A stretch of 38,518 bases of DNA. Source: a virus. Both the position numbers and the translations under genes were made by a program. Positions 6,999 to 35,174 of this stretch are shown here, one piece after another; position 1 is the first letter of the stretch, and every line of letters begins with the position of its first letter. Below the pieces are notes generated by a model. The model did not search any database. It saw nothing but the letters and a program-made list of their open reading frames with translations, and had not been told where the DNA came from. The DNA is taken from positions 1 through 38,518 of the IMG/VR virus record IMGVR_UViG_3300028393_000155. One strand, 5' to 3'.

Positions 6999-7023
6999 CC
7001 CCTACTAGTTAGGGGCTTTTTTT
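6997..7023 (+). terminator. Rho-independent terminator of the early (+) operon
   Basis: AGCCCCTA (6997-7004) pairs perfectly with TAGGGGCT (7010-7017) around the loop CTAGT, and the stem runs into seven T residues (7017-7023). It ends the + strand transcripts. Read on the - strand the same stem is followed by AAACC, so it has no U-tract in that direction and should not stop the late operon efficiently. Confidence 0.92.
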
Positions 7024-13000: not shown

Positions 13001-13018
13001 TGGTAAGTCAAGAAGCAT
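7022..13018 (-). CDS. Giant virion/ejection protein with zincin-like motif (polyvalent, PLxRFG-type protein)
   Basis: The 1998-aa protein is the largest in the window and ends the late arm. Residues 1-350 are Ala/Gly-rich helices. Residues about 350-960 are charged, Ala/Lys/Glu-rich coiled coil and linker with a Pro/Ala stretch near 525-555. At 1006-1010 is HESVH, an HExxH zinc-protease motif (H1006, E1007, H1010), followed about 40 residues later by EFAAELVGN, which may supply a third ligand. The last about 700 residues resemble the C-terminal part of phage 'PLxRFG'/large polyvalent proteins (PILGARFGF, FKSFAWNSAF, FGDDDEPYDFNEDL). Such proteins are thought to be injected with the DNA. It follows an SLT protein, matching the position of T7 gp16. 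I did not find a literal PLxRFG string. Residual function (protease, membrane channel) is inferred. Confidence 0.75.
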   Translation of the reverse strand: MLLDLPKLGAVQFDDNLSAEELSSQLEHLAKKYDFEIPKGNVGYGEMAKKAFTRGTKQLGSTFGDIIPAMAGKALGFDEFAERQMGEAKATQEEINKYYAPQYKELSDVKGITDAPGFVLETIVEQIPNILTSLIPGVGLQAVAARTAANGIAKNLAVQAAEKGLAGEAANAFIAQGVKQSLPQLANIKSAAQNAGIFLGSYAQNAPEVFQNIYEETGKLEVGTSLLFGAGSAALDSVLPSQLAKSLTGPMRVGVVEKILEKSGMDKGLLRTVSANMLKGAGFEGMTEGAQEAISIAAERFVSDNPQVFGSKEWNRIMESSVRGAVGGAGFGTAGGATEAARRQSQYNAAQQKRAGRLDQYKQAADLKAEADAAGVSVEEYQQLQDQGELPGLETGPYTELYDANAIKAQAKEDAKLAKEAAKNAPKDLSGKQVTLFDENGQPTKAAELAKTKGDKAEANRIRQAEQKEKTALKEAQAKLKKVLGAKQADLFEGTKLPTAKEAEAAYKAAEEERKANVGQLGLFGQPAPAATTPPPAPVATAPEEVIAEPVVRAKPTPVTVEQLPTTIDDSTFRTLGIGPTATFIRNKLIHGKDITDPAQAAEVKAVLEAAAEKHKNKETKAKISTFLSRPEFQQFIQETSNEPIAGTSQPSIQDTTVAQDVSGLGPAQSITKPNAGGVAAPGLSVGQDIAGKGAVERPLGVKEAKDVAKTQTNAELILEDQAQEIEKNEVRTALNLSRKIDKTAEKEGLLPNEVNITPEDVKEAVDILRLPALFNSALDLQDSVNNFEDTSAGRAKRARDITQLQMVKEAVAKSGAEATRLLNNLMTASQKDRADGISFLNKHGNDLFDSVIAGKIVEAKQRLESESKNKELKKEQASQAAELGKAREASSDRRKEKRQEAELEEDVDYLSYGLAGLPKSIEEAVDNNQFQEFITGLAATETDPTIKGILQKIEKMRLKTKTKVGKVTRKKGSLGGESDAGAYDPATDTITLDPELGLTRHTGIHESVHAAISHVLRNPDHPLTKQLTAIYESVYSQLGSSYGAQDIQEFAAELVGNPEFRNALKGISAPRSGNMLQRIVQILAEFFGFRKGTSAYEAGIKAINDILDIADTVAPSNGEQMFNIISDARNAMPVLGKQAIEQTLNTFSNVQGAGWKAMGLSLMRLDHINKIWGDKLPAIQTLIDALEKRRGYQEAAIKQVKTNYSNFLKIAKSDPAGVRRMEDMAYEARMAGVDPANVNFVTTPVNAAKYQQLRAIYNALPKDVRGMYDTLRNDYKKAFDTYKDFLLNSTDDPTLKQKIKAQFETNSNVVAYIPFLRRGDYWVRYPDPVTGEEAASAFESIRERQQFIDKNLKNIQHTTYQNLESMDYNSRSIPSSSFIAQVMKGLSVKDPVTGKMTPASQQQMNNVYQAYLALFPAGSIAKNFMRSKNVPGMEKDIIRGYGDTMLKWTRKLADTIYVPQIDAAVEGIKEQAKGDDTLTAVYKNIKQQQDFFHNPTFNKFTHAATALSYFEYISGNISSALINLTALPMLVYPILGARFGFAKAAAAMTASNRTASNWVLKGDNTDPKYKGLYDYLQDHGQLEHTQARELMEGRRTNTADQVGLKAKILDGLSIPFSATEKYNRAITAIAAYDLAKANNFSETKALQYAIDTVKDVHTSGMAETAPLWMQNSIGRVFFTFKSFAWNSAFLMARAFHQSFAKDPSLSAEENKVIRDIARRQLLGTIAMTSVFAGVKGMPFMGLAQVMGQMLHALFGDDDEPYDFNEDLRDFFGELMYKGPVNYITNLEIANRVGVAQDLIWRDDPRASDGLVLGAMQRAFGPAGSYLVNVENAAKMFNEGHTERAIEAVLPSFIRNGMKGTRYMVEGARTLKGDPVEEDIGAYNSMMQVVGFSPASLSSKYEITSAAKNYEKKVADRRQRLLNMYDMARTGGDYDLMAEAREDINDFNSAHPGNRITGTTLQKSQSARKAAERNMINGVTFNRKLLPEIRDKFFDEEN

Positions 13019-17920: not shown

Positions 17921-18226
17921 TTAAACCGTTGTTCCACTAGCGTTTTTCCACACCGTACCGTTCCACCAAACAGGAATTCCCAAGGTGGTATCGTAGTAAA
18001 TCTGCCCAATTGGAACCCCTACAAGGTTTGTACTTACTGGGCGATTTGCCGTAGTGCCAGAATCAGGGATACTAACAGACTGGGTAAAGTTATCTATTTG
18101 GGTGAAATAAAGGCGTAGGGCATTACTAAACTGGTCTTGATACTGCTGGTTATAAGCGACCGGCCCAATAGGTAAATTAGGGGCTTTTGTCCCTATAACT
18201 TGAAGATTTTTAACCTTAGTAACCAT
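17921..18226 (-). CDS. Small virion protein of unknown function (101 aa)
   Basis: The start ATG overlaps the stop of the 789-aa tail protein gene (TAATG at 18224-18228). The N-terminal half is a helix (YNQQYQDQFSNALRLYFTQI) and the C-terminal 40 residues read GQIYYDTTLGIPVWWNGTVW, a small beta unit often found at the end of phage fibre or tail proteins that display sequence to the solvent. It is probably a tail accessory or fibre-base protein. No enzymatic motif is visible. A 39-nt gap with only the next ribosome site separates it from the ejection block. Confidence 0.65.
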   Translation of the reverse strand: MVTKVKNLQVIGTKAPNLPIGPVAYNQQYQDQFSNALRLYFTQIDNFTQSVSIPDSGTTANRPVSTNLVGVPIGQIYYDTTLGIPVWWNGTVWKNASGTTV

Positions 18227-20595
18227 TATCTTCTACCGTCTTGTCGGATATCAATTCGGGGTGTGCCTAACTGCCAAGCTACCCCAAGCGTACTTGACTC
18301 AATCCTAAACGCCAACTGCCTACCCCGTAGCCTTGTATAGACTTGCCCGTCAAACTGCTGGATGTTATAGACCTTTTTAACACTATAATTATCCGCACTA
18401 GCTACTGATGGACTATCCGCTTGGCCATAAGCAGTGCCTGAGTTTTGACGAGGTTTAATTGTCATGGTTACAACAGGATTATTTATGTTAGAGCCGTTAA
18501 AGTTTACGTCTGGCAAGATACGCCATACAAAACCAAAGTTGTGCCCATCACCAATATCAAAATCAGAGGACTGTATATAAGAATAAATTGGTACGGAAGT
18601 TTCACCAGACACATCATCAACAGAAGACTCATGATACAGAACACGTCTGTTGTAATCTGCAGCCATTGGGTATGGGCGAATACCAGAATCTAGCCAATAT
18701 GTTCTAGCCATAGTACCGTAATACCAAACCCGGTCTAAATAGTTGTATATCACATATTTATCTACTGTATCAGTACCACTACTTTCACTTACGTAGAACC
18801 ACCAGACTTCGTTGTAAGCCTCGTTAGCCCCAGCAAAAATTTGGAAAGACTGAGTTGTATTAATGTCATTAAAGATGTACTGGCGTAACGAGCAAGGTAG
18901 GGTTTCTACTCGTCCAGAATACATATAGAACTTATCCCGCCCCATCCAATACGTTACGTTATTAACAGTAATCATAGAATTTGGGGACATAACAGAAATG
19001 TTATCCATCAGCAGGTTAAAGCCCCATACATAAGGAGGCCCTAAATACTGCATAGAATAGATAGCTGAATCTGTCCATACTAAAATCTCTTGGCGTGTAG
19101 CACGACCAGCCATAATAAAAGACCCATTACTTAACAGGAACTCACCTGCTTGGTTTGTAGGAGTCTGTGTCCATTGGAACGGGTTTTCTTGATCTGACCA
19201 GCGCACCAGCATTGGATTAAACGCAGTGCCAGAATTTGTCGGGTCGTAAGAGTTAGAACCCAAAGCAATAACAAATCGTTGAATAGCCGAAGCAATAACC
19301 TGGTTTGTAGCAACTGGACAGAACGCGGCATCCCCTGCACCTACTACAGCTACTGCGGCTTTTGCTAGTGGTACTGCATGAACACTTAACCCTGCAGTTG
19401 CCGACCAGTATGCAATACCCCCGCCTCGTGGCGCAATAATTAAATCTTGCCCAAAGTTATCGTTAGACCAAAGGCGCAGTTGCTGCGGAATACCAGAAGT
19501 GTACCCAGTACCCCAACCACGAGTCCCAGATTGTGGATAAGCAGTAACACCACCACCGCCACCAGTTGTTGTAGAAGTAGCTAATAAAATGGTTCCAGCA
19601 TTACTATTGTTTGTCGTAGTGCCAGGGGTAAGAATTGTGTAGGCATTGGCGCTAGTAACCGTAATCAAATAAGTAATATTTAATACACTAGCCGATATAC
19701 CCCCAGTTGCTGTTGCCCCCGTAAAATAGACATAAGGCACTGAAGCAGTTCCGGAACCAGTACCTACCCCAGTAGCAAAAAAGAGAACCCCTACTGTATT
19801 AGCAGAAGCGCCAATTAATGTAAAGTCTGTACTTCCCACCGATGTAATTCTATATTCTCTACCAACTACAAAAGCCCCTGCCGTAGTAGTATATCCGTGT
19901 GCAGTTTGAGTAACTGTTATTGTTCCGCTTCCGCTTGTTGTGGCAAAGGGGTTACTACCTAAAGCTATAGGAGTGCTTGGAGACCAAGGACCTGCACCCC
20001 AACCCGTACCAATCGTAGCTACGTCATTACCAATTGGATACTCATAATAAATAACTACCGCAGCGCCACCAGTACCCGTATTTCCAACGCCAGGAGTAAC
20101 TGGAAGCGTTACCGTATAAGTACCTGAACCCACGCCGGTAACCACAAAATCATTATTTAAAATGGTAGCAGTAATATTTCCGCCAAGACCTGCTGCCCCA
20201 GTAATCGTAATGTAGTCACCAATGTTAGGAGCGTATTGAGCGTCCGTAATGGTCATAGTGGTATTGCCGGTAACTACTGAAAATGGACCGTTTAATGCAG
20301 GGCTATCATTGTATATATAGGGGGTAATGTTGTTAAATACTGTACCTGATTCTATGTAGTATTTTTTACTAGTACCCAGCCCTAAATAATTAGAGCCATT
20401 AATAGCCACCCAGTTCCACATCGATCGGCAGATACCAATAAACTGGTTATTAGAAAGTCTAGACCAACCACCTAATTTTTCAGGAAAACCAGAACGAAAA
20501 CGGACTTTATCCCCGTCATACCAACCGCCTTCGTTGGCGTAATCAGTACCTTCTCGGTTAAGTCCAGGTCTAAATTCTAGTTTTTGTAATGGCAT
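18226..20595 (-). CDS. Large tail/DNA-stabilisation protein with inserted beta modules
   Basis: The 789-aa protein opens with LEFRPGLNREGTDYANEGG and GDKVRFRSGFPEKLGGW, the N-terminal signature of a family that is annotated in podo-like phages as packaged-DNA stabilisation or tail protein, in the manner of P22 gp10. Residues about 430-789 continue this core (QILIWTDSAIYS-type segments, WYFYVSESS, GFVWRILPDVNF). Between about 100 and 340 are inserted beta modules: one built on GSGTYTVTLPVTPG, one on TITVTQTAHGYTT (near 227), and one on EYRITSVGSTDFTLIGAS (245-265). The last two are mobile modules I recall from many phage structural proteins. The protein probably seals or extends the tail. The adaptor-like gene at 31572 and the neck gene at 33413 carry different inserts. 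Confidence 0.7.
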   Translation of the reverse strand: MPLQKLEFRPGLNREGTDYANEGGWYDGDKVRFRSGFPEKLGGWSRLSNNQFIGICRSMWNWVAINGSNYLGLGTSKKYYIESGTVFNNITPYIYNDSPALNGPFSVVTGNTTMTITDAQYAPNIGDYITITGAAGLGGNITATILNNDFVVTGVGSGTYTVTLPVTPGVGNTGTGGAAVVIYYEYPIGNDVATIGTGWGAGPWSPSTPIALGSNPFATTSGSGTITVTQTAHGYTTTAGAFVVGREYRITSVGSTDFTLIGASANTVGVLFFATGVGTGSGTASVPYVYFTGATATGGISASVLNITYLITVTSANAYTILTPGTTTNNSNAGTILLATSTTTGGGGGVTAYPQSGTRGWGTGYTSGIPQQLRLWSNDNFGQDLIIAPRGGGIAYWSATAGLSVHAVPLAKAAVAVVGAGDAAFCPVATNQVIASAIQRFVIALGSNSYDPTNSGTAFNPMLVRWSDQENPFQWTQTPTNQAGEFLLSNGSFIMAGRATRQEILVWTDSAIYSMQYLGPPYVWGFNLLMDNISVMSPNSMITVNNVTYWMGRDKFYMYSGRVETLPCSLRQYIFNDINTTQSFQIFAGANEAYNEVWWFYVSESSGTDTVDKYVIYNYLDRVWYYGTMARTYWLDSGIRPYPMAADYNRRVLYHESSVDDVSGETSVPIYSYIQSSDFDIGDGHNFGFVWRILPDVNFNGSNINNPVVTMTIKPRQNSGTAYGQADSPSVASADNYSVKKVYNIQQFDGQVYTRLRGRQLAFRIESSTLGVAWQLGTPRIDIRQDGRR

Positions 20596-21769: not shown

Positions 21770-21975
21770 TACTTAGCTTTCGGTTTACGAGTAGTAGCTT
21801 TTTTTACAGTAGATTTTTTAGCAACTGGTTTCTTAATAGGCGCTGGCTCTTCTGCTAAGTTTTTAACTTCTACTTCTGCAAAAGGCCACTGTGTAGTTAC
21901 GTTAACCTTACCAACTTGCATATCTACTTTTGGCATATAGCCAAGCTTGTCAAACAACCATGAAAATAAAAACAT
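21769..21975 (-). CDS. Small basic protein of unknown function next to the holin
   Basis: The 68-aa protein starts MFLFSWLFDKLGYMPK, a short amphipathic or membrane-leaning stretch, and then a small beta part (VDMQVGKVNVTTQWPF). The last 25 residues are Lys/Pro/Ala-rich (KKPVAKKSTVKKATTRKPK), like the disordered tail of histone H1-type proteins. It could bind nucleic acid or the membrane surface. Start and stop both overlap their neighbours in TAATG, so it belongs to the translationally coupled run of fibre, small protein, holin and spanin. No known lysis function fits; a lysis accessory or antiholin is possible but unsupported. Confidence 0.55.
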   Translation of the reverse strand: MFLFSWLFDKLGYMPKVDMQVGKVNVTTQWPFAEVEVKNLAEEPAPIKKPVAKKSTVKKATTRKPKAK

Positions 21976-23519
21976 TATTTAGCCTCCAATTGAGCAACAC
22001 GTTTACGTAAAGATTGTAGTTCAGCAATCATCAAAGCAATCATTTCTGGTGTAGACGCATCAATACCTTGGTAAATAGGTTTACCATCTTCATCAACAGC
22101 ATTAGGCTCACCACCCACTGCGCCTGGAATTATTTGCTGCAGTTCGTCGGCAATAAAACCTCGTGCAGTTTTTCCTGTAGCATCCCATATAAATTCTCTT
22201 GGTTGCATTGCATCAATAATAGAACCAGCATTTGTTAGAGGGGTAATATTAGATTTAAGTCTGCGATCTGAAGTTGTTTGATAACTAGTAGCTCCAGAAG
22301 TTACTGCAATTGCCCCAGAACTTGTGGCGTTATATTGAAAAACCATTGCATAAGTACTGCCGCCAACTACGTTAACACCAATGCCAGAAGACCCACCGCT
22401 ATAACTTTCAAAGTAAGCACAAGATTGTCCAGGAGTAGTTCCTTTTACTGTTAAGTTAAAATTACCATAAAAAAGATTACCACAGCCAATACTGCCAGCT
22501 GCTACTATATTATTTGTGCCTAATCCAGAGCTATTAAATTTATTGGCTTGTGTTCCACCTGTAATAAACGTAATTTCACCAGAAGATTGGTTTATGTAGT
22601 TACTTGTGTTGCCAACGTAATAAATTGGAGAAGTTACTGATGAAGAAAATGTTGCGCTAGTATTAGTACCAGAAGTTAATACAGAATTTCCGCCAACCGT
22701 AGGGGCTACACCAAAAGTAACAGGGGTTGCATTGGTAAATGAGTTTGTACCGCTAAAGGTATTGTTGCCTGACTGGGTTGCACCAGTAAATGTTATCCAG
22801 CTAGGAGCAGCAGTTCCGTTAGATTGAAGCACTTGCCCTGTTGAACCCGCAGAAAGAAACTGGGTTGTATTTGCACCAGATTGATAAACAATTTGACCTG
22901 CGCCGCCACCGGCTAAGTTACTAGCTAATGTTGCTGTACCTGATGGATTCCAGTATGGAGGGGCTCCGCTACCACCGCTTGTTAAAACATATCCAGATGT
23001 TCCAGGAGCTAAATAAGTAGTTACACCAACACCGCTTTGATAAACAAGTGCATTAGCAGTACCACCAGTTAGATTAGCTGCACCAACGGCAACCGATGCG
23101 TATGTAGAACTGTTTACGTAGTTAACTGCCACCATTTCAGAACCAGTACAGTAGGCTATAACGGTAGTTCCAGTAAGAATAGCTAAAGCAGTGCCACCAG
23201 CAGGTTTAAAGTATGCCGTTGCGCTAGACGCTAAGTTGTTGGTAATAATGTAAAGCTTTTGTTTGGCTGGACAAATAACTGAATTTGAACCTGATTGAAC
23301 GCCGTTAATAATAATTACCGCACTACGAGACTCGTCTGCTGCCCCGTTAAGATTTGAGAGGGTGTAGTCGCTACCTGCAGACATAGTAATTGAAGTTTGG
23401 TAGCAAATAGCTTGCTCTAGAAGAGTACCTAGATTTGTATTGGTAGTAGCACCCCAAACACCCGTCTGCTCACCGTCTCCGATAAGTGCAAGTTTTAAAC
23501 TATTAGAATACGTTGTCAT
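21975..23519 (-). CDS. Tail fibre with C-terminal S74 self-cleaving chaperone domain
   Basis: The 514-aa protein starts with a fibre N-terminus (LALIGDGEQTGVWGATTNTN), then two copies of a 'VYQSG...LxSxGxxAPxW' repeat at about 155-240, a glycine-rich beta region, and a C-terminal intramolecular chaperone. The S74 motif is TSDRRLKSNI (416-425) with the catalytic Ser417 and Lys422. The domain trims itself off after helping the trimer fold, so the mature fibre should end near 416. The helix AELQSLRKRVAQLEAK ends the chaperone as usual. The gene has AAGGAAG before the start. It precedes the lysis cassette and follows the 20-residue-repeat protein gene. Confidence 0.85.
   Translation of the reverse strand: MTTYSNSLKLALIGDGEQTGVWGATTNTNLGTLLEQAICYQTSITMSAGSDYTLSNLNGAADESRSAVIIINGVQSGSNSVICPAKQKLYIITNNLASSATAYFKPAGGTALAILTGTTVIAYCTGSEMVAVNYVNSSTYASVAVGAANLTGGTANALVYQSGVGVTTYLAPGTSGYVLTSGGSGAPPYWNPSGTATLASNLAGGGAGQIVYQSGANTTQFLSAGSTGQVLQSNGTAAPSWITFTGATQSGNNTFSGTNSFTNATPVTFGVAPTVGGNSVLTSGTNTSATFSSSVTSPIYYVGNTSNYINQSSGEITFITGGTQANKFNSSGLGTNNIVAAGSIGCGNLFYGNFNLTVKGTTPGQSCAYFESYSGGSSGIGVNVVGGSTYAMVFQYNATSSGAIAVTSGATSYQTTSDRRLKSNITPLTNAGSIIDAMQPREFIWDATGKTARGFIADELQQIIPGAVGGEPNAVDEDGKPIYQGIDASTPEMIALMIAELQSLRKRVAQLEAK
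22796..23053 (-). repeat. Two fibre repeats of the 'VYQSG...APxW' kind
   Basis: Within the S74 fibre gene, two diverged units of about 40 residues encode LVYQSGVGVTTYLAPGTSG... and IVYQSGANTTQFLSAGSTG..., each ending GxGAPPYW or GTAAPSW. Related units occur in the fibre gene at 29092-30549 (LVYQTGTNTTGFIANGTSG), so the two genes share sequence that could support recombination. Confidence 0.6.
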
Positions 23520-23528
23520 GATCTTCCT

Positions 23529-24188
23529 TTAAGCTTGATCGTTATTAATTTGAACCCAGTTAGGGGTTTGGTCGTCTACAACCCTGAACCATCCACGCCC
23601 AATCGGAGCGTCTGTTAATGTTATTGTTTCTGGGACTGTTGGTCTGTATGTAGCGTTTGCTGGTACTGTATCTACGGCAGTTAGCGTTTCTGCAACAATT
23701 GGGCTATATGATAATTGCGCTGTAGTGGCATCTGTTATTGTAGCAGTTTCTGCTCTAGTCACGCCGTAGAAGAATCCGCCTGTTAAAGCTTCAGATACTG
23801 TCATTGTTTCTGCTAACGAACCAACAAATACTATTCCGCCAGTTGCGCTATCAGTCGCAGTTAAAGCCTCGGCTAGGCTTACAGAATATAAATACGAAAT
23901 ATTAGGGGTGTCAACAAGACTTAGCGATTCTGCCAAACTTACTGGATACACACTGATATTGCCCTCAACGGTATCAAGACTAAAGTTTTCAGTTACTGTT
24001 GGACGGAAATTAAAAGTAGCCCCAGAATCGGCATCAGACAAGGAAAAAGATTCAAAGTTAAGCCCTTGAAATACGGCGGGGCCAGCATATACATCTGTAG
24101 AAGTAAACGAATCGGATAAATCAACCGCGTAGCTAGTCCCACCTAATGCGGCAAATGGGGCTTGAGCAAACGCAGTTATTCCAAACAT
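23529..24188 (-). CDS. Fibre-like protein with a strict 20-residue repeat
   Basis: The 219-aa protein has a short leader (MFGITAFAQAPFAALGG) and then about nine repeats. Each has an acidic residue followed six residues later by Asp: E87/D93, E107/D113, E147/D153, E167/D173, E187/D193, with one Glu (E133) in the Asp place. An aromatic residue recurs at F61, Y81, Y101, F121, Y141, Y161, Y181 and F201. The unit is roughly xLAExhxhxDxxxxxxYxx. A fixed 20-residue period with buried aromatics fits a beta-solenoid or stacked-hairpin fibre, by inference. The last 18 residues (VDDQTPNWVQINNDQA) look like an attachment tail. It lies just upstream of the S74 fibre gene in the transcript, so a fibre-tip or partner role is likely. 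No homologue is recognised. Confidence 0.7.
   Translation of the reverse strand: MFGITAFAQAPFAALGGTSYAVDLSDSFTSTDVYAGPAVFQGLNFESFSLSDADSGATFNFRPTVTENFSLDTVEGNISVYPVSLAESLSLVDTPNISYLYSVSLAEALTATDSATGGIVFVGSLAETMTVSEALTGGFFYGVTRAETATITDATTAQLSYSPIVAETLTAVDTVPANATYRPTVPETITLTDAPIGRGWFRVVDDQTPNWVQINNDQA
23586..24113 (-). repeat. 60-bp-period coding repeat (nine diverged units)
   Basis: The repeat covers residues 26 to 201 of the 219-aa protein. The protein-level period is 20 residues, with one 21-residue step near 46-67, while the DNA units are diverged, so the period is kept by selection on the fold rather than recent duplication. Confidence 0.65.
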
Positions 24189-24189
24189 A

Positions 24190-24546
24190 TTATTCTGTTA
24201 ATGAATATTTGGTCATTAAATCAAACGCTTGTTCTGGAGTAATGTCAGGAGAAGCAACATCATCAACACCATCTCCATCACGAATAGCATGGATACAACA
24301 AAATACTGTATTGGGTTCTAAAGCGGTAAATTGATGTTTAATACCTTTTGGGGTAACAATTAAATGAGGCGCTTTGTATTCAGCTTCGCCATTGTCATGC
24401 ACCATTTTAACTGCGCCAGAAGATAACAAAGTAATATGGTCAAAAGTATGGGCATGGCCGTGATCAGTGTCACCAACACGAACAAAATGATGCAGTTTTA
24501 CAAATACATTATCTACAATTTTAAGGTCTGTTTGTGGATTAGACAC
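24190..24546 (-). CDS. Cupin-family protein A (118 aa)
   Basis: The protein matches the cupin motif 1, G(x)5HxH(x)3E(x)6G, with G25, H31, H33 and G44, but His37 replaces the Glu. Motif 2 follows as PKGIKH (66-71) with H71. The four His (31, 33, 37, 71) could bind a metal ion. H61 and H86 are also kept in the paralogue at 26278. The C-terminal 28 residues (from about 91) are unique to this copy. Substrate and reaction are unknown; small cupins can be dioxygenases, isomerases or metal-binding sensors. GTG 24546 is the start, overlapping the previous gene by 8 nt. It sits inside the fibre cluster, which is unusual. Confidence 0.8.
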   Translation of the reverse strand: MSNPQTDLKIVDNVFVKLHHFVRVGDTDHGHAHTFDHITLLSSGAVKMVHDNGEAEYKAPHLIVTPKGIKHQFTALEPNTVFCCIHAIRDGDGVDDVASPDITPEQAFDLMTKYSLTE

Positions 24547-24886
24547 GAGTTACCTCAATAGTTGGCTGTGGTGGATTGTAAACCCAAAGGCAAGCAAACT
24601 CATCAAATGTGACATATTGTTCATCCTCTTGCGGCACAATCGGTTTAGGGTTAATAAACGCATCACGACTTGTATCGTATGTATATCCTATGCCAGCATA
24701 ATTTTTTCTTGTATTGCCGTTATAGCTTGTTTGTTTCCAATTAGTATCTGCGCCAAATAAAGATTTTAAAAAGTCAATACCAAGTTGTTCTTGTTCGTTT
24801 CCTTGCTCATCTTTAAGCATAAAGTTATCAACAACAAGGACTCTTAAAACAGTATTATTTGAGTCCAATTCTGCAAAATGAGCCAT
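24539..24886 (-). CDS. Conserved fibre-region protein, 'MAHFAELD' family (115 aa)
   Basis: The start is ATG 24886 (MAHFAELDSNNTVLRV); its A is the last base of the upstream stop (TAATG), although the frame is open to 24901. The centre has WKQTSYNGNTRKNYAGIGYT, a stretch that I recall as highly conserved in many phage proteins of this size, including cyanophages, then a short acidic part and a last segment with FDEFACLWVYNPPQP. Its role is unknown; the invariable placement in fibre clusters suggests a fibre chaperone or a small head/tail ornament. No catalytic motif is visible. It lies between the Gly-rich protein gene and cupin A. Confidence 0.7.
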   Translation of the reverse strand: MAHFAELDSNNTVLRVLVVDNFMLKDEQGNEQEQLGIDFLKSLFGADTNWKQTSYNGNTRKNYAGIGYTYDTSRDAFINPKPIVPQEDEQYVTFDEFACLWVYNPPQPTIEVTRV

Positions 24887-25773
24887 TATTGGAATCTCCA
24901 TTTAATAACTACAATACCTGAACCACCGTTACCACCACGACCACCGCCATTGTCACCACCGCCACCTCCACCAGTATTTGCAGTTCCACTAATACCAGGA
25001 GTATCAGCAGAACCTCCACCTCCAGTACCGCCAGTTCCTTGTGTTATTACAATGCCACCACCTGCACTAGTACTAGCAAATCCCCCACCGCCTCCAGCAT
25101 ATGTAACGGATGTGCCAGTAATTGAATTAGGACTGCCATCACCACCATTTCCACCAGTTGAGGTTAATGTAGTTGCGCTACCACTTCCACCAGATTGAGA
25201 AGCTCCACCACCACCACCACCATATCTATTAAAATAAGCAGTTTTTAAACCTGGGTTAACTGACAATCTTCCACCATTGCCGCCAGAATTTCCTTGTCCC
25301 GATGTTCCTGAGCCAGGGTTACTAGAAGATTGACCTCCGCCACCTCCACTACCACCAGTTCCGCCATCTACGTTATCGTAACCGCCCTTACCGCCTCCAG
25401 TAGAAATTATTAAACTACCTATTGAAGAATCTGACCCATTAGCCGGAGAACTATTTCCAAGACCGCCAGCGCCAACGGTAACAGTATAACTAGTTGCAGT
25501 AACTGTTTGACCTGTTGCAGCTAAAAGACCTCCAGCACCGCCACCGCCTCCTCTGCCTGGACCTCCAGGACCTCCACCAGCTACTACAAGATATTCAATA
25601 GTGCTAGATTCAACACTTCCAGAACCAACAGAGTTAACCGTAAATGAGCCTGTGCCAAGGAAACTAGCAATTTTATAATTACCGCTTGTAGTTACAGTTG
25701 CACCTGAAGTTGTAGCATCTATATAAGTAGCTGCAAGTCCAGCCGTTTGGAAAGCATTAATTGCGGCAAACAT
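24886..25773 (-). CDS. Glycine-rich fibre/adhesin protein (295 aa)
   Basis: Start ATG 25773 (MFAAINAFQTAGLAATYIDA) overlaps the previous stop in TAATG; the longer frame to 25809 is not needed. After a beta N-terminal part (about 1-75, NYKIASFLGTGSFTVNSVGS) it is extremely Gly/Ser-rich with GGGG runs, and ends with the short strand GSGIVVIKWRFQ. Glycine-rich domains with short Gly blocks separated by Ser/Asn/Thr can fold as a polyglycine-II sandwich, as in the Salmonella phage S16 adhesin gp38; applying that here is inference. It probably sits at a fibre tip. The complement of the Gly codons reads as long Pro-rich frames, which are not genes. Confidence 0.75.
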   Translation of the reverse strand: MFAAINAFQTAGLAATYIDATTSGATVTTSGNYKIASFLGTGSFTVNSVGSGSVESSTIEYLVVAGGGPGGPGRGGGGGAGGLLAATGQTVTATSYTVTVGAGGLGNSSPANGSDSSIGSLIISTGGGKGGYDNVDGGTGGSGGGGGQSSSNPGSGTSGQGNSGGNGGRLSVNPGLKTAYFNRYGGGGGGASQSGGSGSATTLTSTGGNGGDGSPNSITGTSVTYAGGGGGFASTSAGGGIVITQGTGGTGGGGSADTPGISGTANTGGGGGGDNGGGRGGNGGSGIVVIKWRFQ

Positions 25774-26270
25774 TATGGTGTGTAACCTTGTGAAATAGAA
25801 CCATACCAATTTGTACCATCAGCAACAAATGTCAGAATATCCATTTTGCCAGCAGTAGCTGTAATAGTTGGCGCACCAGAAGTACCCCATTTAACACCTG
25901 TAAATGTAGCTGTACCGTTACCTGTAGAAGCCGCTTGCTTTAATAGCAAGATAAATGATTTACCAGCGGTTGCTGTAGGCATTGTAAATGTACAAGCGGT
26001 AGAAGCTGTCAATGTAGCAGTCTGAACAGTGCCGTTAGTTAATGCAATCGTATTGGTAGTTGTAACTGTTCCAATAGCCACTACACTTTCAGTGTAGTTT
26101 GTAATTGTAGAATTTGTTATTGTTGGTGTAGTTAATGATGGGCTAGTTCCTAAAACAACAGCACCAGAACCTGTAGAAGTAGTAACTCCTGTACCTCCGT
26201 TGGTAACAGCCAGAACACCAGATGAACTTGCGCCTTCGGCAAGAATAGATAGGTTACGTGAAATAGTCAT
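25773..26270 (-). CDS. Short tail-fibre protein (165 aa)
   Basis: The protein begins MTISRNLSILAEGASSSG and has the sequence NGGTGVTTSTGSGAVVLGTS, the usual hinge of phage side fibres between an N-terminal attachment part and a shaft. Later strands (TATLTASTACTFTMPTAT, GKMDILTFVADGTNWYG) resemble the end of short fibre proteins and the sequence is typical beta-rich, Thr/Ser-rich, without long helices. It is probably the fibre shaft or an adaptor for the Gly-rich protein that follows, whose start it overlaps. Its start has no strong ribosome site. It is too short to hold a receptor-binding domain of its own. Confidence 0.7.
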   Translation of the reverse strand: MTISRNLSILAEGASSSGVLAVTNGGTGVTTSTGSGAVVLGTSPSLTTPTITNSTITNYTESVVAIGTVTTTNTIALTNGTVQTATLTASTACTFTMPTATAGKSFILLLKQAASTGNGTATFTGVKWGTSGAPTITATAGKMDILTFVADGTNWYGSISQGYTP

Positions 26271-26277
26271 AATATGC

Positions 26278-26589
26278 CTATGGAATCATTGATGGGTCTA
26301 AAATATCGCCAGTGGTTTCGTCTCTCATAGCATGAATGCAGTAAGCAACAGTGTTATCTTCTAGCGCTACCAATTCGTGCATCTTATCTTTGTGGATAAA
26401 AATCATGTGTGGGGTTTTAAACTCTGTGGTTTTACCTTCAACTGTTACGCTCAACGCTCCAGCAGCTAATAAAGTTAAGTGGTCAAGCTGATGTGTATGA
26501 CCTTGCTCAACATCGCCTTTTCTTTCAAAGTGCATTTGACGAGTGTATAGGTTTGAAACGCTACCAAGTTGTACCTTTGGGTAATTCAT
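26278..26589 (-). CDS. Cupin-family protein B (103 aa), paralogue of cupin A
   Basis: This protein aligns without gaps with cupin A over the first 90 residues; I count about 38 identities by hand. All six His are at the same numbers: 31, 33, 37, 61, 71 and 86. Motif 1 is GHTHQLDHLTLLAAG (30-44), with His37 in place of Glu. In motif 2 the PxG of cupin A is HKD (66-68), so the two copies have drifted there. Its start overlaps the stop of the 146-aa gene (TAATG). Metal binding is likely; the role is unknown. The placement before another fibre-shaft gene mirrors that of cupin A. Confidence 0.8.
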   Translation of the reverse strand: MNYPKVQLGSVSNLYTRQMHFERKGDVEQGHTHQLDHLTLLAAGALSVTVEGKTTEFKTPHMIFIHKDKMHELVALEDNTVAYCIHAMRDETTGDILDPSMIP

Positions 26590-27029
26590 TACACCACCGT
26601 TGCTGGAATTGTTGTAGTCTCGTTAGTCTTAGCCAAAATTAAAGTAGCAGACGCTTGAGAAATGTCACCCACAGCAACAAGCATATCAAGCACTTCTTTT
26701 ACTTTAGCTTTAAAGTTTTGCCCAACCAATTCAACTTTAGCTGTTTTAATTTCATCGCTTTTGTCGTTGTCCCATTTAACTCGCTCGGCAAGAGTCAAAC
26801 CTTTGCGAACATCTTCAGCAGTCCATTGACGGGGTGCTGGCTCTGCTTCAATAATTACAGGCTCTGGTGGTTTTGTTGCCTTGACGCCATCCCAAAAGTC
26901 ATCTTTATTAGCGTCATCGGGAACAAGTGTGTCGTAAAATTTAGCGACATCTGAGTGATACCATGAAAACGGTTCTCCCGGAGCAATATCTCTTATGCGT
27001 CCGTTTTCAATCCATGCGTGCTTAGTCAT
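26589..27029 (-). CDS. Fibre-region protein of unknown function (146 aa)
   Basis: The start is ATG 27029 (MTKHAWIENGRIRDIAPG), chosen because AGGAGA lies 8 nt upstream; the frame is open to 27062 but starts there have no such site. The first 60 residues, with EPFSWYHSDVAKFYDTLVPD, form a compact domain; a Pro/Glu linker follows (EPVIIEAEPAPRQW); and the last 70 are helical (AEDVRKGLTLAERVKWDNDK and EVLDMLVAVGDISQA). The layout resembles tail-fibre assembly proteins or small capping proteins. It overlaps the Cys4 mini-gene by 8 nt and the cupin B start by 1 nt. Confidence 0.6.
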   Translation of the reverse strand: MTKHAWIENGRIRDIAPGEPFSWYHSDVAKFYDTLVPDDANKDDFWDGVKATKPPEPVIIEAEPAPRQWTAEDVRKGLTLAERVKWDNDKSDEIKTAKVELVGQNFKAKVKEVLDMLVAVGDISQASATLILAKTNETTTIPATVV

Positions 27030-27192
27030 TTGTTTTCTCCTGATGTTCTCCGCAAAAACCATCGTTCAGCATTGGCGGAAAAAATGAATTCAAACCACCC
27101 TCTGGGGTGACCAAAATAGTAGGGGGATAACGACGGCAAAGTCCTTGTTCGTCGTTATGTTTTAAAAAGTGATTACAGTTTTGGCAGTTCAT
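27022..27192 (-). CDS. Cys4 mini-protein (56 aa), probable zinc ribbon
   Basis: This frame, ATG 27192 to TAA 27022-27024, is too short for most ORF filters but is well supported. It starts MNCQNCNHFLKHNDEQGLC and continues RYPPTILV and FPPMLNDGFCGEH. Four Cys at 3, 6, 19 and 47, with the C-x2-C, the RRYPP and the CGEH, match a family of tiny phage proteins I recall as 'C..C........G.C.R.PP......FP....d..CGE'. It probably binds zinc. The ATG overlaps the stop of the Gly-rich gene (TAATG) and the 3' end overlaps the next gene by 8 nt, so it completes an otherwise unexplained gap of 163 nt. Its function is unknown. Confidence 0.8.
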   Translation of the reverse strand: MNCQNCNHFLKHNDEQGLCRRYPPTILVTPEGGLNSFFPPMLNDGFCGEHQEKTND

Positions 27193-28679
27193 TAGTAGCC
27201 TTCAGTCCAAGCAAAAGCCACAAAGCCGTTTCCGCCACTGCCTCCAGCGCAACCAGTTCCGGTGACTCCGCCCCCACCGCCGCCTCCTGCACCTGCGCCT
27301 CCAGCGCCACCAATAGCCGCGGTGGTATTAGGGTTTACGCTTCCTCCGCCACCGCCGCCACCACCGCCAAAGCCTCCAGAACCGGGGGTAGCAGAAAAAT
27401 TACTTGTGCCACCACCACCGCCACCGCCGCCGCCCCAGCCACCGCTACCACCAGAGTTACCCTGTGTGCTGGAACCGCCGCCACCGCCACCACCCCAGCC
27501 GCCATTTCCCGCAGGTTGGTAACTAACGCCACTCTGAGCAGTGCCACCTCCACCACCGCCAAAACCGCCGTTACCAGCCAATCCATAGTACCCAGACCCA
27601 GCACCGCCGCCGCCCACAGGGCGAACACGATTTGCGTACAAAATAAAATCTGAATCAGCATTAACTATAGTTCCAGAACCCCCAGAACCCGGTGGCGTTG
27701 AGTTTGTGTAACTTCCGTTTCCTTGATTAGCGGCAACACCGCCAAATGGGCCACCTCCAGCATATCCAATGTAATTACTACCTGACCCATACCCTAAATT
27801 ATTTTGAGCAGACGATTCAGAACCGCCGCCACCACAACCATAAGCCTGACTACTGATTGGTACATTTATGTTGCCGCCGTTGCCGTTATAACCACCTCCC
27901 CCACCACCTGCACTAATATCAAAGCCACCTGACCCAGTTCTCAAATATCCACCAGCACCGTTAAAGCCGGCGCCGCCACCACCTCCGTTAACTTGAAAAG
28001 AACCTGTACTATATAAATAACCACCAGCGCCATTAAAACCACCGCCTCCAGCGCCGCCTTTCATAGTAGACTGACTTCCATCTCCGCTAATATAACCACC
28101 AGCACCACGAAGTCCTCCGCCACCAGCGCCACCGGTTAATGCTTGATAATTTGCGGCGGTAATATATCCACCCGCTCCTCCAGAAGAAGTGATTAAACCC
28201 CTTATAGTTGCACTAACGGTTGCTGCCCCACCAGCACCACCACTACTTGTACTATTTCCATTGTCATTTGCACCAACACCATAACCGCCGCCAGTTAAGG
28301 AAATAGTTGTTCCAATTGATGTTGTGCCACCAGCAGTTCCACGAGTGGTTACAAGTGTACCCGATGAAGTTCCGCCCGAACCTCCAGCGCCAATAGTTCC
28401 AGTAATGGTTTGTCCGGGAATAACATCTAAAATACCTTCAGCATTTCCACCGCCGCCACCCCCTGTTCCGCCGGCTTCATAACCACTACCTTGTCGGTAA
28501 AAACCACCACCACCGCCACCGCCGCCAGCGGCTAAAAAGTAGAGTTGGTATACATTTTGTGGAACGGTAAATGTAAATGTGCCCGCTGTTGTAATAACTT
28601 GACTACGTGCCCAGTTAGGGGGAGCAACACGGGTAGCATAATTTGGTGGCAGTGCTATGCCATACATTCCCTTATTCAT
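27192..28679 (-). CDS. Large glycine-rich fibre/adhesin protein (495 aa)
   Basis: The first about 55 residues are not repetitive, with NWARSQVITTAGTFTFTVPQ then VYQLYFLAA, the strand before the glycine-rich start that is typical of this protein type. Nearly all the rest is Gly-rich with short Ala/Ser/Asn/Tyr breaks such as GAGGYLRTGSGGFDIS. The C-terminus is NGFVAFAWTEGY, like the shorter paralogue at 24886, which ends GSGIVVIKWRF. The shared start (TFTxP/SFTxN and LVVAGGG) and end suggest paralogy. A polyglycine-II arrangement is a guess from composition. Gly codons create a GC-rich tract and long antisense Pro-rich frames that should not be called genes. Confidence 0.75.
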   Translation of the reverse strand: MNKGMYGIALPPNYATRVAPPNWARSQVITTAGTFTFTVPQNVYQLYFLAAGGGGGGGGFYRQGSGYEAGGTGGGGGGNAEGILDVIPGQTITGTIGAGGSGGTSSGTLVTTRGTAGGTTSIGTTISLTGGGYGVGANDNGNSTSSGGAGGAATVSATIRGLITSSGGAGGYITAANYQALTGGAGGGGLRGAGGYISGDGSQSTMKGGAGGGGFNGAGGYLYSTGSFQVNGGGGGAGFNGAGGYLRTGSGGFDISAGGGGGGYNGNGGNINVPISSQAYGCGGGGSESSAQNNLGYGSGSNYIGYAGGGPFGGVAANQGNGSYTNSTPPGSGGSGTIVNADSDFILYANRVRPVGGGGAGSGYYGLAGNGGFGGGGGGTAQSGVSYQPAGNGGWGGGGGGGSSTQGNSGGSGGWGGGGGGGGGTSNFSATPGSGGFGGGGGGGGGSVNPNTTAAIGGAGGAGAGGGGGGGVTGTGCAGGSGGNGFVAFAWTEGY

Positions 28680-28680
28680 C

Positions 28681-29082
28681 TTAGTAGTCTCCGCCTGATG
28701 CAGTTACACGAACACCTGTTTGAGTTACAGAAGTTGTAGCTCTTAATGAGTATCCAGTTGGTAAGTTAATAGGTAATAAGTTTGGCTGTGTATTGCTTGA
28801 AATTAATGCTTGAAATGCTGGTATTGTTGTTGAAGAAGTAATGGCAATTACAGGAACCTGAGCATAAAGGATGTAGTTTGTACCATCATAAATAAACAAG
28901 TTAACGTTACTTGCCACAGTAGTAGCTACACCTTGAACCTCAATATAATCAATACGTGAACCACTAGAACCAGCGGTAAATACTGTTCCTACTGTAGACG
29001 GAGCAGTTAAAGATGTATCAGCCGTTGTTAAAAGTGCTGAGCCTATTTTGGGGGTTGATGCGTATTGTGCAGATGTTGACAT
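28681..29082 (-). CDS. Small beta-rich virion protein (133 aa)
   Basis: The protein starts MSTSAQYASTPKIGSALLTT, a Thr/Ser/Ala-rich N-terminus. A folded beta part with RIDYIEVQGVATTVASNVN and LFIYDGTNYILYAQV follows, then PTGYSLRATTSVTQTGVRV and a short end (TASGGDY). Similar proteins of this size sit in many phage fibre clusters; they are thought to be fibre- or head-decoration subunits. AAGGAG lies before the start. It lies 9 nt after the larger fibre gene and 1 nt before the large Gly-rich gene. Confidence 0.65.
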   Translation of the reverse strand: MSTSAQYASTPKIGSALLTTADTSLTAPSTVGTVFTAGSSGSRIDYIEVQGVATTVASNVNLFIYDGTNYILYAQVPVIAITSSTTIPAFQALISSNTQPNLLPINLPTGYSLRATTSVTQTGVRVTASGGDY

Positions 29083-29091
29083 TATTACTCC

Positions 29092-30549
29092 TTAAATTAA
29101 TCCAAAGCCATTACTAGTGGCATTAAACGGTGTATTACCGCCATTAAACATAGTTACAAAAGGCTGCGCTCCACTAGCAGCTGCTTGCCATGAAGGAACA
29201 GATGATCCATTGCTTGTTAACACATAGCCTGATGTTCCGTTAGCAATAAATCCTGTTGTATTAGTACCAGTTTGATATACAAGTTGGCTTGCGGCTCCAC
29301 CTGAAATATTACTAGCAGTGCCTACACTACTAACAGAAAATGCAATAGTTTCAACAATATCGCCAGCACCAGCTGCAGTTGCTAATACAATAGAAGTACC
29401 ATTAGACGCTGTGTAATCTGAAGCGTTTAGCAATACACCATTTAAATACACCTGTACATAGCCTACTGTATAAGTAACACTAAATGTTGTTTGACCACCT
29501 GTAGCTGTAAATGAAGTTCTTGTATATGCACCTGTAACAGAAACTGAAGACCAAGTAGGAGGAGCGCCAGATCCAGCAGAAGTTAATACTTGCCCAGATG
29601 TACCGTAAGAGCCGTTAAACGCAATAGCATTTGTTGCATCAATCGTCATAGCATCATTTGCGTTGCTATTAGTTACGATATGAATTGGGTTTGATGCCGT
29701 TGTACCAATTGCAAGGTGCGTATTAACTGCATACAAATAAACAGTGTTTGCCTCGTTTAAATTGCTAGTCCCAGTAAAGTTGGAACTGTTCATACCAAAG
29801 TCGCCGTAGTACGATGAAGCCGTACCTAAGTTATTACTTACGATAAAGTCAGCTGAAGCTGCTGTACCAGCGTTTTTGTTTTCTACTATTACCTGACCAT
29901 AACTATTTACATCCGTTGAGTAAGAAGCAAATATGTTTGTATCTGAATAGCCTAAAGTACCATAAAAATATGCGCCAGTAGCGGCACTTGTACTAATAGT
30001 TTTAGTAGCTACGTACGATGTGGACGATAAAGCAGACCCGTTATAGTTTAGTGATGCGGAAGTGCTAAGAGCTGAAGTGCCGTTACCATAAGGAACATAC
30101 CCAGTAGTAACGCTTGTTAATCCTGTACCGCCATTAGCAACAGGCAGAGTACCTGTAACACCAGTAGTAAGTGGTAGTCCAGTAGCATTAGTTAACGTAG
30201 CGGAAGTAACTGTACCAAGAGCATTAACATTACCAGCAGTGTCTAAATTAATAGACTTTCCAGACGGGTACGTAACAAATACTGTTACAGCACCGGAAAA
30301 CGTAACTGCGCTTCCAGAGTTACTAGAAGATAGGATAGTTGTGCGGGTTAACGTAGGGCCTGTAGTTGAATATGTACCAACACCTACTTCCCAGTTACCA
30401 GTGGCATCAAAAGCGCTATAGTAAGTTGTATTCCCGTTACCAACAACCGCAAACGACTGATACCCAGTAGCCGTACTCGTTAAAGTAAAGCTAACTGTGG
30501 TATTTGCCGTCCCGTTCTGTTGGACGCGATCCGCTAGTATTAATGCCAT
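29092..30549 (-). CDS. Tail fibre protein (485 aa)
   Basis: The N-terminus, MALILADRVQQNGTANTTVS, with GSAVTFSGAVTVFVTYPSGK at about 95-115, is a widespread fibre-attachment domain. Then comes GNVNALGTVTSATLTNATGL and the NGGTGLTSVTTGYVPYGNG hinge. Later there are VLTSAGSGAPPTW and LVYQTGTNTTGFIANGTSG repeats like those in the S74 fibre, and a central segment (YTRTSFTATGGQTTFSVTYT) that is a known fibre module. The C-terminal end (FNGGNTPFNATSNGFGLI) is short and there is no S74 domain, so it may be a shaft whose tip is the Gly-rich protein. The start ATG 30549 has GGAG 6 nt upstream. Confidence 0.8.
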   Translation of the reverse strand: MALILADRVQQNGTANTTVSFTLTSTATGYQSFAVVGNGNTTYYSAFDATGNWEVGVGTYSTTGPTLTRTTILSSSNSGSAVTFSGAVTVFVTYPSGKSINLDTAGNVNALGTVTSATLTNATGLPLTTGVTGTLPVANGGTGLTSVTTGYVPYGNGTSALSTSASLNYNGSALSSTSYVATKTISTSAATGAYFYGTLGYSDTNIFASYSTDVNSYGQVIVENKNAGTAASADFIVSNNLGTASSYYGDFGMNSSNFTGTSNLNEANTVYLYAVNTHLAIGTTASNPIHIVTNSNANDAMTIDATNAIAFNGSYGTSGQVLTSAGSGAPPTWSSVSVTGAYTRTSFTATGGQTTFSVTYTVGYVQVYLNGVLLNASDYTASNGTSIVLATAAGAGDIVETIAFSVSSVGTASNISGGAASQLVYQTGTNTTGFIANGTSGYVLTSNGSSVPSWQAAASGAQPFVTMFNGGNTPFNATSNGFGLI

Positions 30550-34366: not shown

Positions 34367-34561
34367 TTACCCATTTTTCAGTATTCGTATTTCTTCACGT
34401 AACTTAATTATTTCTGCATCTCGTTCGTCTAACTTCTTCATTAAACCAACGCTTGTATCTGCCCACATTGCCATGTCTCTAACACGCTCTTTGTGGTCTT
34501 CCAGCATCATGTTGTATAACCGCTCAGACGCATCAATCTGAACCTGCATGAAGTCTTTCAT
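34367..34561 (-). CDS. Small coiled-coil protein (64 aa)
   Basis: Nearly the whole sequence is a charged amphipathic helix: RLYNMMLEDHKERVRDMAMW, then MKKLDERDAEIIKLREEIRI. It overlaps the upstream gene in ATGA (34558-34561) and its stop is 3 nt before the 316-aa gene. A coiled-coil oligomer, perhaps a scaffold-like or connector accessory, is likely. No motif gives a function. Confidence 0.6.
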   Translation of the reverse strand: MKDFMQVQIDASERLYNMMLEDHKERVRDMAMWADTSVGLMKKLDERDAEIIKLREEIRILKNG

Positions 34562-34905
34562 TTAATCTTCCTATACGGTTTTACTTTTGCTTTTACCTTT
34601 TGCGGCTGCGGCACGAATTGCTGCCCCTGTGCTTTTCCTGCTCGTTTTGCTCGTGTTGTTGCTGCGTACTCTTGTGGGCTTAACGCTTGTATTGCTTTCT
34701 TCGGCAAGTACCGTTCCCCCGTCTCGGACGATTTCTTCCCTGACTTGGTTGTCCACTCTTGGTCGCCCCAAGATTTCAAAGATTGTTGCGATTTTGCTAA
34801 ACCACCCCCAGCCATTTTCTTTTTGCTTGCGCAATGTGCTTTCTGAGAGAATCCCTTTGGGTTGCTGCAATTTATTGAATCCTTGTATTTTTTTGACCAT
34901 GTCAC
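34558..34905 (-). CDS. Basic virion-region protein, DUF5872-like (115 aa)
   Basis: The N-terminus, WSKKYKDSINCSNPKGFSQ with KAHCASKKK, is a motif I recall from many phage proteins (Y..SI.C.NPKGFSQKAHC). The C-terminal part reads SLKSWGDQEWTTKSGKKSSE, TGERYLPKKAIQALSPQEYA and ATTRAKRAGK, which I recognise as a DUF5872-like domain; the name needs checking. It is Lys-rich, with a GG motif (KMAGGGLAKS) between the two parts. Its stop overlaps the next start in ATGA. A second frame over the same bases (34571-34918) is a shadow. The role is unknown. Confidence 0.7.
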   Translation of the reverse strand: MTWSKKYKDSINCSNPKGFSQKAHCASKKKMAGGGLAKSQQSLKSWGDQEWTTKSGKKSSETGERYLPKKAIQALSPQEYAATTRAKRAGKAQGQQFVPQPQKVKAKVKPYRKIK

Positions 34906-35174
34906 TTGTAGCCTCCACCAGCCGCCTTATATTTTTTGGCTACTAATTGGGCTTTACGAGCCGACCATTGACCTGCACCAGTACCTTGTGTTGCAGCTGC
35001 TTTAACTTGAGAAACAATACGTTTACGCATCTCTGGTTTTGTGTAGTTCCCAGCGGCATTGACCTTTCCACCTTCTTTATATTGCGTAAAGTCGGTGTTA
35101 TCCTTGCGGGGTTTCTTTTTCCCACTTGGCATTTTAGAAGGGGCAATATCGCCCATACCACGGCTGGCTCGCAT
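34902..35174 (-). CDS. Basic virion-region protein (90 aa)
   Basis: The start is ATG 35174 (MRASRGMGDIAPSKMPSGKK); the frame is open to 35243 but that would lie inside the upstream gene. The protein is Lys/Arg-rich, with KEGGKVNAAGNYTKPEMRKR and a conserved-looking end, GQWSARKAQLVAKKYKAAGG. This end recurs in small basic phage proteins I recall. It starts 1 nt after the stop of the 191-aa gene, and its 3' end overlaps the next gene by 4 nt. Probably part of the same virion or DNA-binding group as its neighbours; no enzyme motif. Confidence 0.65.
   Translation of the reverse strand: MRASRGMGDIAPSKMPSGKKKPRKDNTDFTQYKEGGKVNAAGNYTKPEMRKRIVSQVKAAATQGTGAGQWSARKAQLVAKKYKAAGGGYK

Follow-up and report, generated by a model that had tools for sequence, protein, structure and literature searches.

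A repeat protein family with conserved ends and exchangeable shafts encoded directly before fibre-type genes in phages

Results

The repeat gene and its locus

The stretch of DNA analysed here, referred to as the window, is an IMG/VR virus record of 38,518 bases with podovirus-like gene content. A protein of 219 aa, named P0001, is encoded on its minus strand, and the plus-strand reading of the same positions contains many stops. A sequence-only reading of 23529-24188 had described the repeat of this protein; that account lacked the minus strand, the N-terminal anchor, the exchange of shafts, the C-terminal 11-residue units marked by Trp (Trp 11-mers) and the fixed position next to a tail-fibre gene. 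The features are as follows.

23529..24188, minus strand (24188 -> 23529): repeat gene P0001, 219 aa, ATG start, from the ORF listing and translation
24138..24188, minus strand: N-terminal anchor, residues 1-17, MFGITAFAQAPFAALGG, near-invariant in 87 anchor-bearing proteins
23586..24125, minus strand: nine 20-residue units, residues 22-201, from the lag-20 test, the unit matrix in relatives and predicted strands
23532..23591, minus strand: pair of C-terminal Trp units, residues 200-219 (WFRVVDDQTPN / WVQINNDQA), overlapping the end of unit 9
21975..23519, minus strand: next gene, a tail fibre with a C-terminal Peptidase_S74 chaperone domain, 9 nt downstream of the repeat gene

The tail fibre is recognized by Pfam (PF13884, E=5.3e-11) and by the PHROG tail fiber family phrog_5668 (E=1.9e-23). 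The stretch 21975-30549 holds a series of fibre-type genes together with Gly-rich and cupin-like ORFs. The neighbours of P0001 comprise the S74 tail fibre, two Gly_rich_2 ORFs and several ORFs with PHROG tail-fibre matches. The Gly_rich_2 ORFs, located at 24886-25809 and 27192-28679 inside the fibre locus, are possible glycine-rich adhesins. Two mutually similar small ORFs (24190-24546 and 26278-26589) are interspersed in the same locus, the former with weak cupin and short-tail-fibre matches.

Elsewhere in the window, a "stabilization"-type protein is encoded at 18226-20595, with best phage matches about 30% identical, and an endolysin and a lytic transglycosylase ORF are also present. An ORF of 1998 residues with an LPD39 domain (7022-13018) looks like a large ejected virion protein in size and place. 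Two ORFs of 115 residues each, on the same strand and in different frames, overlap almost totally at 34558-34918.

The 20-residue repeat in P0001

At lag 20, residues 21-205 have a BLOSUM62 self-similarity of 0.90, whereas shuffled sequences average -0.68 (sd 0.15). This score was reached by none of 5000 shuffles, which confirms that the proposed 20-residue repeat is real. The best self-similarity over lags 5-64 was likewise reached by none of 1000 shuffles, and lags 40 and 60 rank next after lag 20. The aromatic residues F61, Y81, Y101, F121, Y141, Y161, Y181 and F201 are all present as described. The leading acidic residues of the nine units are D26, E46, E67, E87, E107, E127, E147, E167 and E187; one of these steps is 21, and the spacing, given as strictly 20 residues, is therefore not quite strict. 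An Asp six positions later had been proposed for every unit; an acidic residue is found there in eight of the nine units but Asp in only seven, the exceptions being one unit with E133 in place of Asp and the E67 unit, which has D72 at +5. Residues 22-196 contain 21 acidic and 3 basic (Lys/Arg/His) residues, and this near absence of basic residues is compatible with, rather than indicative of, putative metal sites.

The DNA units are diverged, as noted earlier, with a mean pairwise identity of 36% and a maximum of 53%. Tandem Repeats Finder detects no array of 60-nt units at the repeat gene because the DNA copies are too diverged, and a DNA repeat search at the gene gave only a 26-nt stretch in three copies. 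The dN/dS ratio (simple NG86) is 0.26-0.35 for four relatives that share about 60% protein identity with P0001; the nearest relative, which has few changes, gives 0.56. Values below 1 against all five relatives compared indicate purifying selection and bear out the suggestion that the repeat protein is under selection.

Family membership and shaft diversity

Scanning IMG/VR with P0001 as query yielded 61 loci, and a scan with an alignment as query yielded 80 loci kept from at least 123 confirmed (at least 600 candidate stretches); many loci of the two scans lie on the same contigs. The candidate total is a lower bound, and therefore the family is larger than the collected set. A loose anchor start was found in 124 ORFs, 87 of them distinct, comprising P0001, 85 proteins from other IMG/VR loci and one from pelagiphage HTVC023P. 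The last was found by a Trp-spacing scan of the region around the HTVC023P homologue of the 18226-20595 protein, and two of the five phage regions around such homologues contained a candidate. At 60% identity the 87 proteins form 47 clusters. Scans of cellular genome contigs, with patterns from the anchor or mostly from stretches outside the repeat core, gave no confirmed relative. E-x5-D repeats in some archaeal surface proteins may resemble the P0001 20-mer.

The best self-similarity lag is 20 in 66 of the 87 proteins, 40 in 14 and 41 in one; it is 22 in four and 44 in two. An iterated position matrix of the 20-mer found 817 units in 77 anchor-bearing proteins, and leans towards the pattern because it was seeded with the units of P0001 itself. 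It scores eight rather than nine units in P0001 because of the 21-residue step. The consensus is approximately xxSITENFTLADSxTxxAxF, with E6 in 93%, D12 in 83% and F20 in 66% of units. E or D is present at position 6 in 99% and at position 12 in 91% of the 817 units, and an aromatic residue at position 20 in 76%. Positions 4, 8 and 10 are hydrophobic, positions 6 and 12 acidic, and positions 3, 5, 7, 9 and 11 small and mostly polar. Consecutive units are exactly 20 residues apart in 653 of 740 steps, the remainder being mostly 40 or 41, and complete members with any 20-mer have from 5 up to 20 units. All 87 shafts together contain 2666 acidic and 368 Lys/Arg/His residues among 21,494. Thr occupies unit positions 7, 9 and 11 in 53, 72 and 62% of the 40 units of the nearest relatives, against 13, 45 and 18% of all 817 units.

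Ten of the 87 proteins carry the anchor without the E-x5-D...F 20-mer and have another repeat as shaft; the best lag is 22 or 44 in six of them, and the other four show a different 20-residue pattern. The shaft thus varies in length by whole units and, with both ends kept, gives way to other repeats in some members. The overall architecture consists of an anchor of about 17 residues, a repeat shaft and, in nearly all complete members, Trp 11-mers.

Proteins of more than 2000 residues, starting with MADRYWVGG and carrying 20-mers near the C-terminus, were also observed (L037, L038, L043, L044, L048, L049, L051 and L052). Such giants (e.g. L037, L043, L051) occupy the same gene slot before the fibre gene. 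A protein of Limnohabitans phage DC31 resembles part of the large N-terminal region of the L043 type and lacks the 20-mers.

Conserved ends

The anchor of P0001 has the pattern MFGI[ST]AFAQ.PFA (within residues 1-17), with aromatics at residues 2, 7 and 12. The 87 anchor-bearing proteins were themselves selected with a looser version of this motif; an aromatic residue is kept in 84-86 of them at each of the first two positions, and F or Y in 86 at the third. A different start, GWG..WGQ..WG, replaces MFGI.AFAQ.PFA in two proteins (L141:1150-2280 and L053:5947-6726). An alignment by eye brings the aromatic, Gly/Ala and Gln residues of the two starts into register, and the two anchors may be related.

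At the other end, at least one 11-residue W..I.D.Q unit is present in 77 of 78 complete members. P0001 has two; there are two in 17 members, three in five, four in 43, six in 11 and one in a single member, with L058 alone having no Trp chain. The number is even in 71 of the 77 members, and in 39 of the 44 clusters, that have any. This prevalence of even numbers hints that two 11-mers form one structural turn, and the sequences thus suggest a 22-residue unit. Tape-measure 11-residue units are helical in character. Of the 194 Trp 11-mers analysed, 2% have a hydrophobic residue at position 8 and 2% at position 11, unlike an amphipathic helix, and Q, T, P and N are typical there.

A fibre-type gene as fixed neighbour

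A homologue of the S74 fibre gene of the window was detected in 55 of the 61 relative loci. The gene directly after the repeat gene could be assessed for 75 of the 87 members, 12 having no testable next gene, and is of fibre type in 72 (nine of these judged by eye). By pattern, 54 next ORFs have the WG..TN fibre N-terminus (type A) and nine the LADRV fibre N-terminus (type B); of the ten assigned to neither, eight were judged type A and one type B by eye. The exceptions are L060, whose next ORF differs, and L111 and L124, which have no qualifying ORF. The count of 72 is per protein among related members (87 proteins in 47 clusters) and uses a wider pattern written after the misses had been seen, a stricter first pattern having given 43 of 75. 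A next ORF was found in 73 cases, and in 60 of them the gap to it is 3-10 nt. The position of the family immediately before a gene of fibre type is thus fixed.

Sequence and literature searches

P0001 has no match in Pfam or PHROGs at E<=0.1, in NCBIfam at E<=0.01 or among PDB sequences at E<=10, in agreement with the earlier reading, which recognized no named family. In phage databases, where a search for the repeat had been proposed, relatives were found in IMG/VR loci, and tblastn of P0001, L008 and L022 against 50,697 phage records gave no match at E<=0.01 with the low-complexity filter on. Among 28 relatives, six match the tail-fibre PHROG phrog_28766 weakly (best E 1.1e-4). Weak matches to 22 Pfam families scattered among 28 members, the most frequent being RAD24_helical in seven relatives (best E 2.3e-4), and to 17 PHROGs scattered among the 28 relatives were attributed to chance or composition. 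A literature search with the anchor strings tried found no paper. None of the libraries searched names the family or has a model that covers P0001.

Structure prediction

AlphaFold2 gave a mean pLDDT of 62.1 and a pTM of 0.58 for P0001 with 28 sequences, its five models ranging from 62.1 to 40.5. For the relative L066, 44% identical, the mean pLDDT was 52.2 and the pTM 0.43 with 42 sequences; the model made with more sequences was thus the worse one. Both models show about two strands per 20-residue unit at low confidence, and the anchor and the Trp array have pLDDT below 50. Foldseek with the P0001 model returned 57 matches in the PDB at E<=10 and 292 in BFVD, none at E<=0.001 in either. The L066 model was compared by VIA only. 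By VIA, both models align with numerous LRR and beta-helix proteins, the best Z being 15.1 for P0001 and 12.5 for L066, with no family prominent.

The earlier proposal was a beta-solenoid with a putative buried aromatic ladder. The solenoid agrees with the two strands per unit, but given the low confidence of both models and the lack of a Foldseek match at E<=0.001 it is suggested and not shown. The models support a beta-rich repeat rod, for which a single-chain solenoid is not proven.

Proposed function and alternatives

On balance, we lean towards a role for P0001 as shaft or adhesin in the tail-fibre locus of a podovirus-like phage, its place in the virion being inferred from the gene neighbours. 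The short N-terminal anchor would dock on a different protein of the virion. Stacked in tandem, the 20-residue units would build a rigid beta-rich rod, with about two short strands each, and their number would set the rod length; the Trp 11-mers would cap the rod or make contact with either the surface of the host or the fibre encoded next door. Nine units between conserved ends, together with the tail-fibre gene next door, thus probably denote a rod of adjustable length that aids host reach.

Less probable, and still deserving serious attention, is an arrangement with the same function in which the units form an intertwined homotrimeric fibre (a triple beta-helix or spiral) and not a single-chain solenoid. 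Phage fibres, S74 fibres included, are commonly trimers. The low single-chain AlphaFold confidence, which did not rise with more sequences, would fit a fold that depends on partner chains, and the acidic and hydrophobic residues alternate together at positions 4, 6, 8, 10 and 12, which is odd for a single-chain core. However, both monomer models are still coil-like, with a strand spacing of roughly 20 residues.

It is unlikely that P0001 helps to assemble the neighbouring fibre without being a structural part itself. Assembly factors often adjoin their fibres in phages, as the fixed place beside the fibre gene would have it, but a tandem array of variable number, sometimes fused to very large proteins, better fits a structural rod.

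A quite improbable elaboration of the adjustable rod would be a cassette system in which the docking peptide and the Trp end are kept and the rod is swapped (20-mer, 22-mer VTG or other repeats), with calcium-binding acidic ladders and a Thr-x-Thr-x-Thr face. One or two acidic ladders of the rod may be candidate calcium sites. Insect antifreeze proteins have a flat Thr-x-Thr-x-Thr face, and by analogy that of the nearest relatives could grip an ordered surface, e.g. crystalline polysaccharide or ice.

A curli-like or other secreted polymer subunit, released from infected cells and not part of the virion, is very improbable. Curlin repeats, of about 22 residues, are short like the P0001 units, and a BFVD match is named "Curlin associated", at a non-significant E of 0.64. 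Curli (type VIII secretion) genes are reported in HTVC023P-type pelagiphages (PMC9599517). The record, which may be a fragment, nevertheless has no Curlin_rpt and no CsgG match at E<=1, P0001 itself has no Pfam match, and its gene lies directly before the tail-fibre gene; a curli identity was rejected.

Scarcely credible is a length ruler with Trp 11-mers as tape-measure units: W-marked 11-residue repeats occur in tape-measure proteins according to PMC3271669, and the L043 Trp array (134 residues) matches 99 phage records at E<=0.01, with nearly all of the best 30 of the 99 annotated as tail or tape-measure proteins, but identity is 23-27% and the best E-values about 6e-5 among the matches listed, positions 8 and 11 are polar although the W and I places are common to both, and the neighbourhood is podovirus-like.

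The receptor-facing parts of aquatic phages known from metagenomes only are poorly annotated, and the three-part architecture of anchor, unit-length shaft and Trp array places "hypothetical" genes in the fibre locus. The presence of a member in the cultured phage HTVC023P makes virion presence testable, and the natural series of 5-20 units between the same ends offers a direct test of rod length against unit number.

Comparison with known systems

The P0001 model aligns with 7muq_AM (Z 15.1, rmsd 5.0) and 5gkq_A (Z 14.4, rmsd 3.1), and the L066 model with the SRRP adhesin 5nxk_C (Z 12.5) and the tail fibre 9rkv_M of Agrobacterium phage 7-7-1 (Z 11.0, rmsd 4.0, 181 aligned). Both models align over 170-180 residues with beta-solenoids (PL6 alginate lyases, pentapeptide and LRR proteins). 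Unrelated families are tied or close in these beta-helix alignments, with identity of at most 15% among the matches listed, and the predicted likeness of P0001 to beta-solenoid and beta-helix proteins would be one of common arrangement only.

Pentapeptide-repeat proteins have a coil of 20 residues, like the P0001 unit, and the motif A(D/N)Lxx. The profile match to 2j8k is weak (E 0.55), and Pentapeptide_4 is matched by two of 28 relatives (best E 3.9e-4). A pentapeptide identity was rejected, as the consensus is not A(D/N)Lxx and P0001 has no pentapeptide profile match at E<=0.1 in Pfam. Curlin (CsgA/B) is another short tandem beta repeat, reported in related-type aquatic phages (PMC9599517).

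The closest comparison is with two proteins annotated as hypothetical only, gp68 of HTVC023P (QGZ17694-series, MN698239.1, L143:10988-11668) and a protein of phage DSL-LC04 (L141:1150-2280), a metagenome-assembled genome according to the title of PMC10611076. Both share with P0001 the slot before a tail-type or S74-type gene, the next gene of gp68 being annotated as a putative tail protein, and both carry Trp 11-mers at the C-terminus. The anchor of gp68 has L and I replacing two F, and that of the DSL-LC04 protein is replaced by a GWG..WGQ.PWG start. Unlike P0001, both have 22-residue VTG..GT..G shaft repeats without the E-x5-D pattern. A repetitive rod of a phage fibre locus is a familiar kind of protein; what is new here is that fixed ends are combined with exchangeable shafts built from different repeats.
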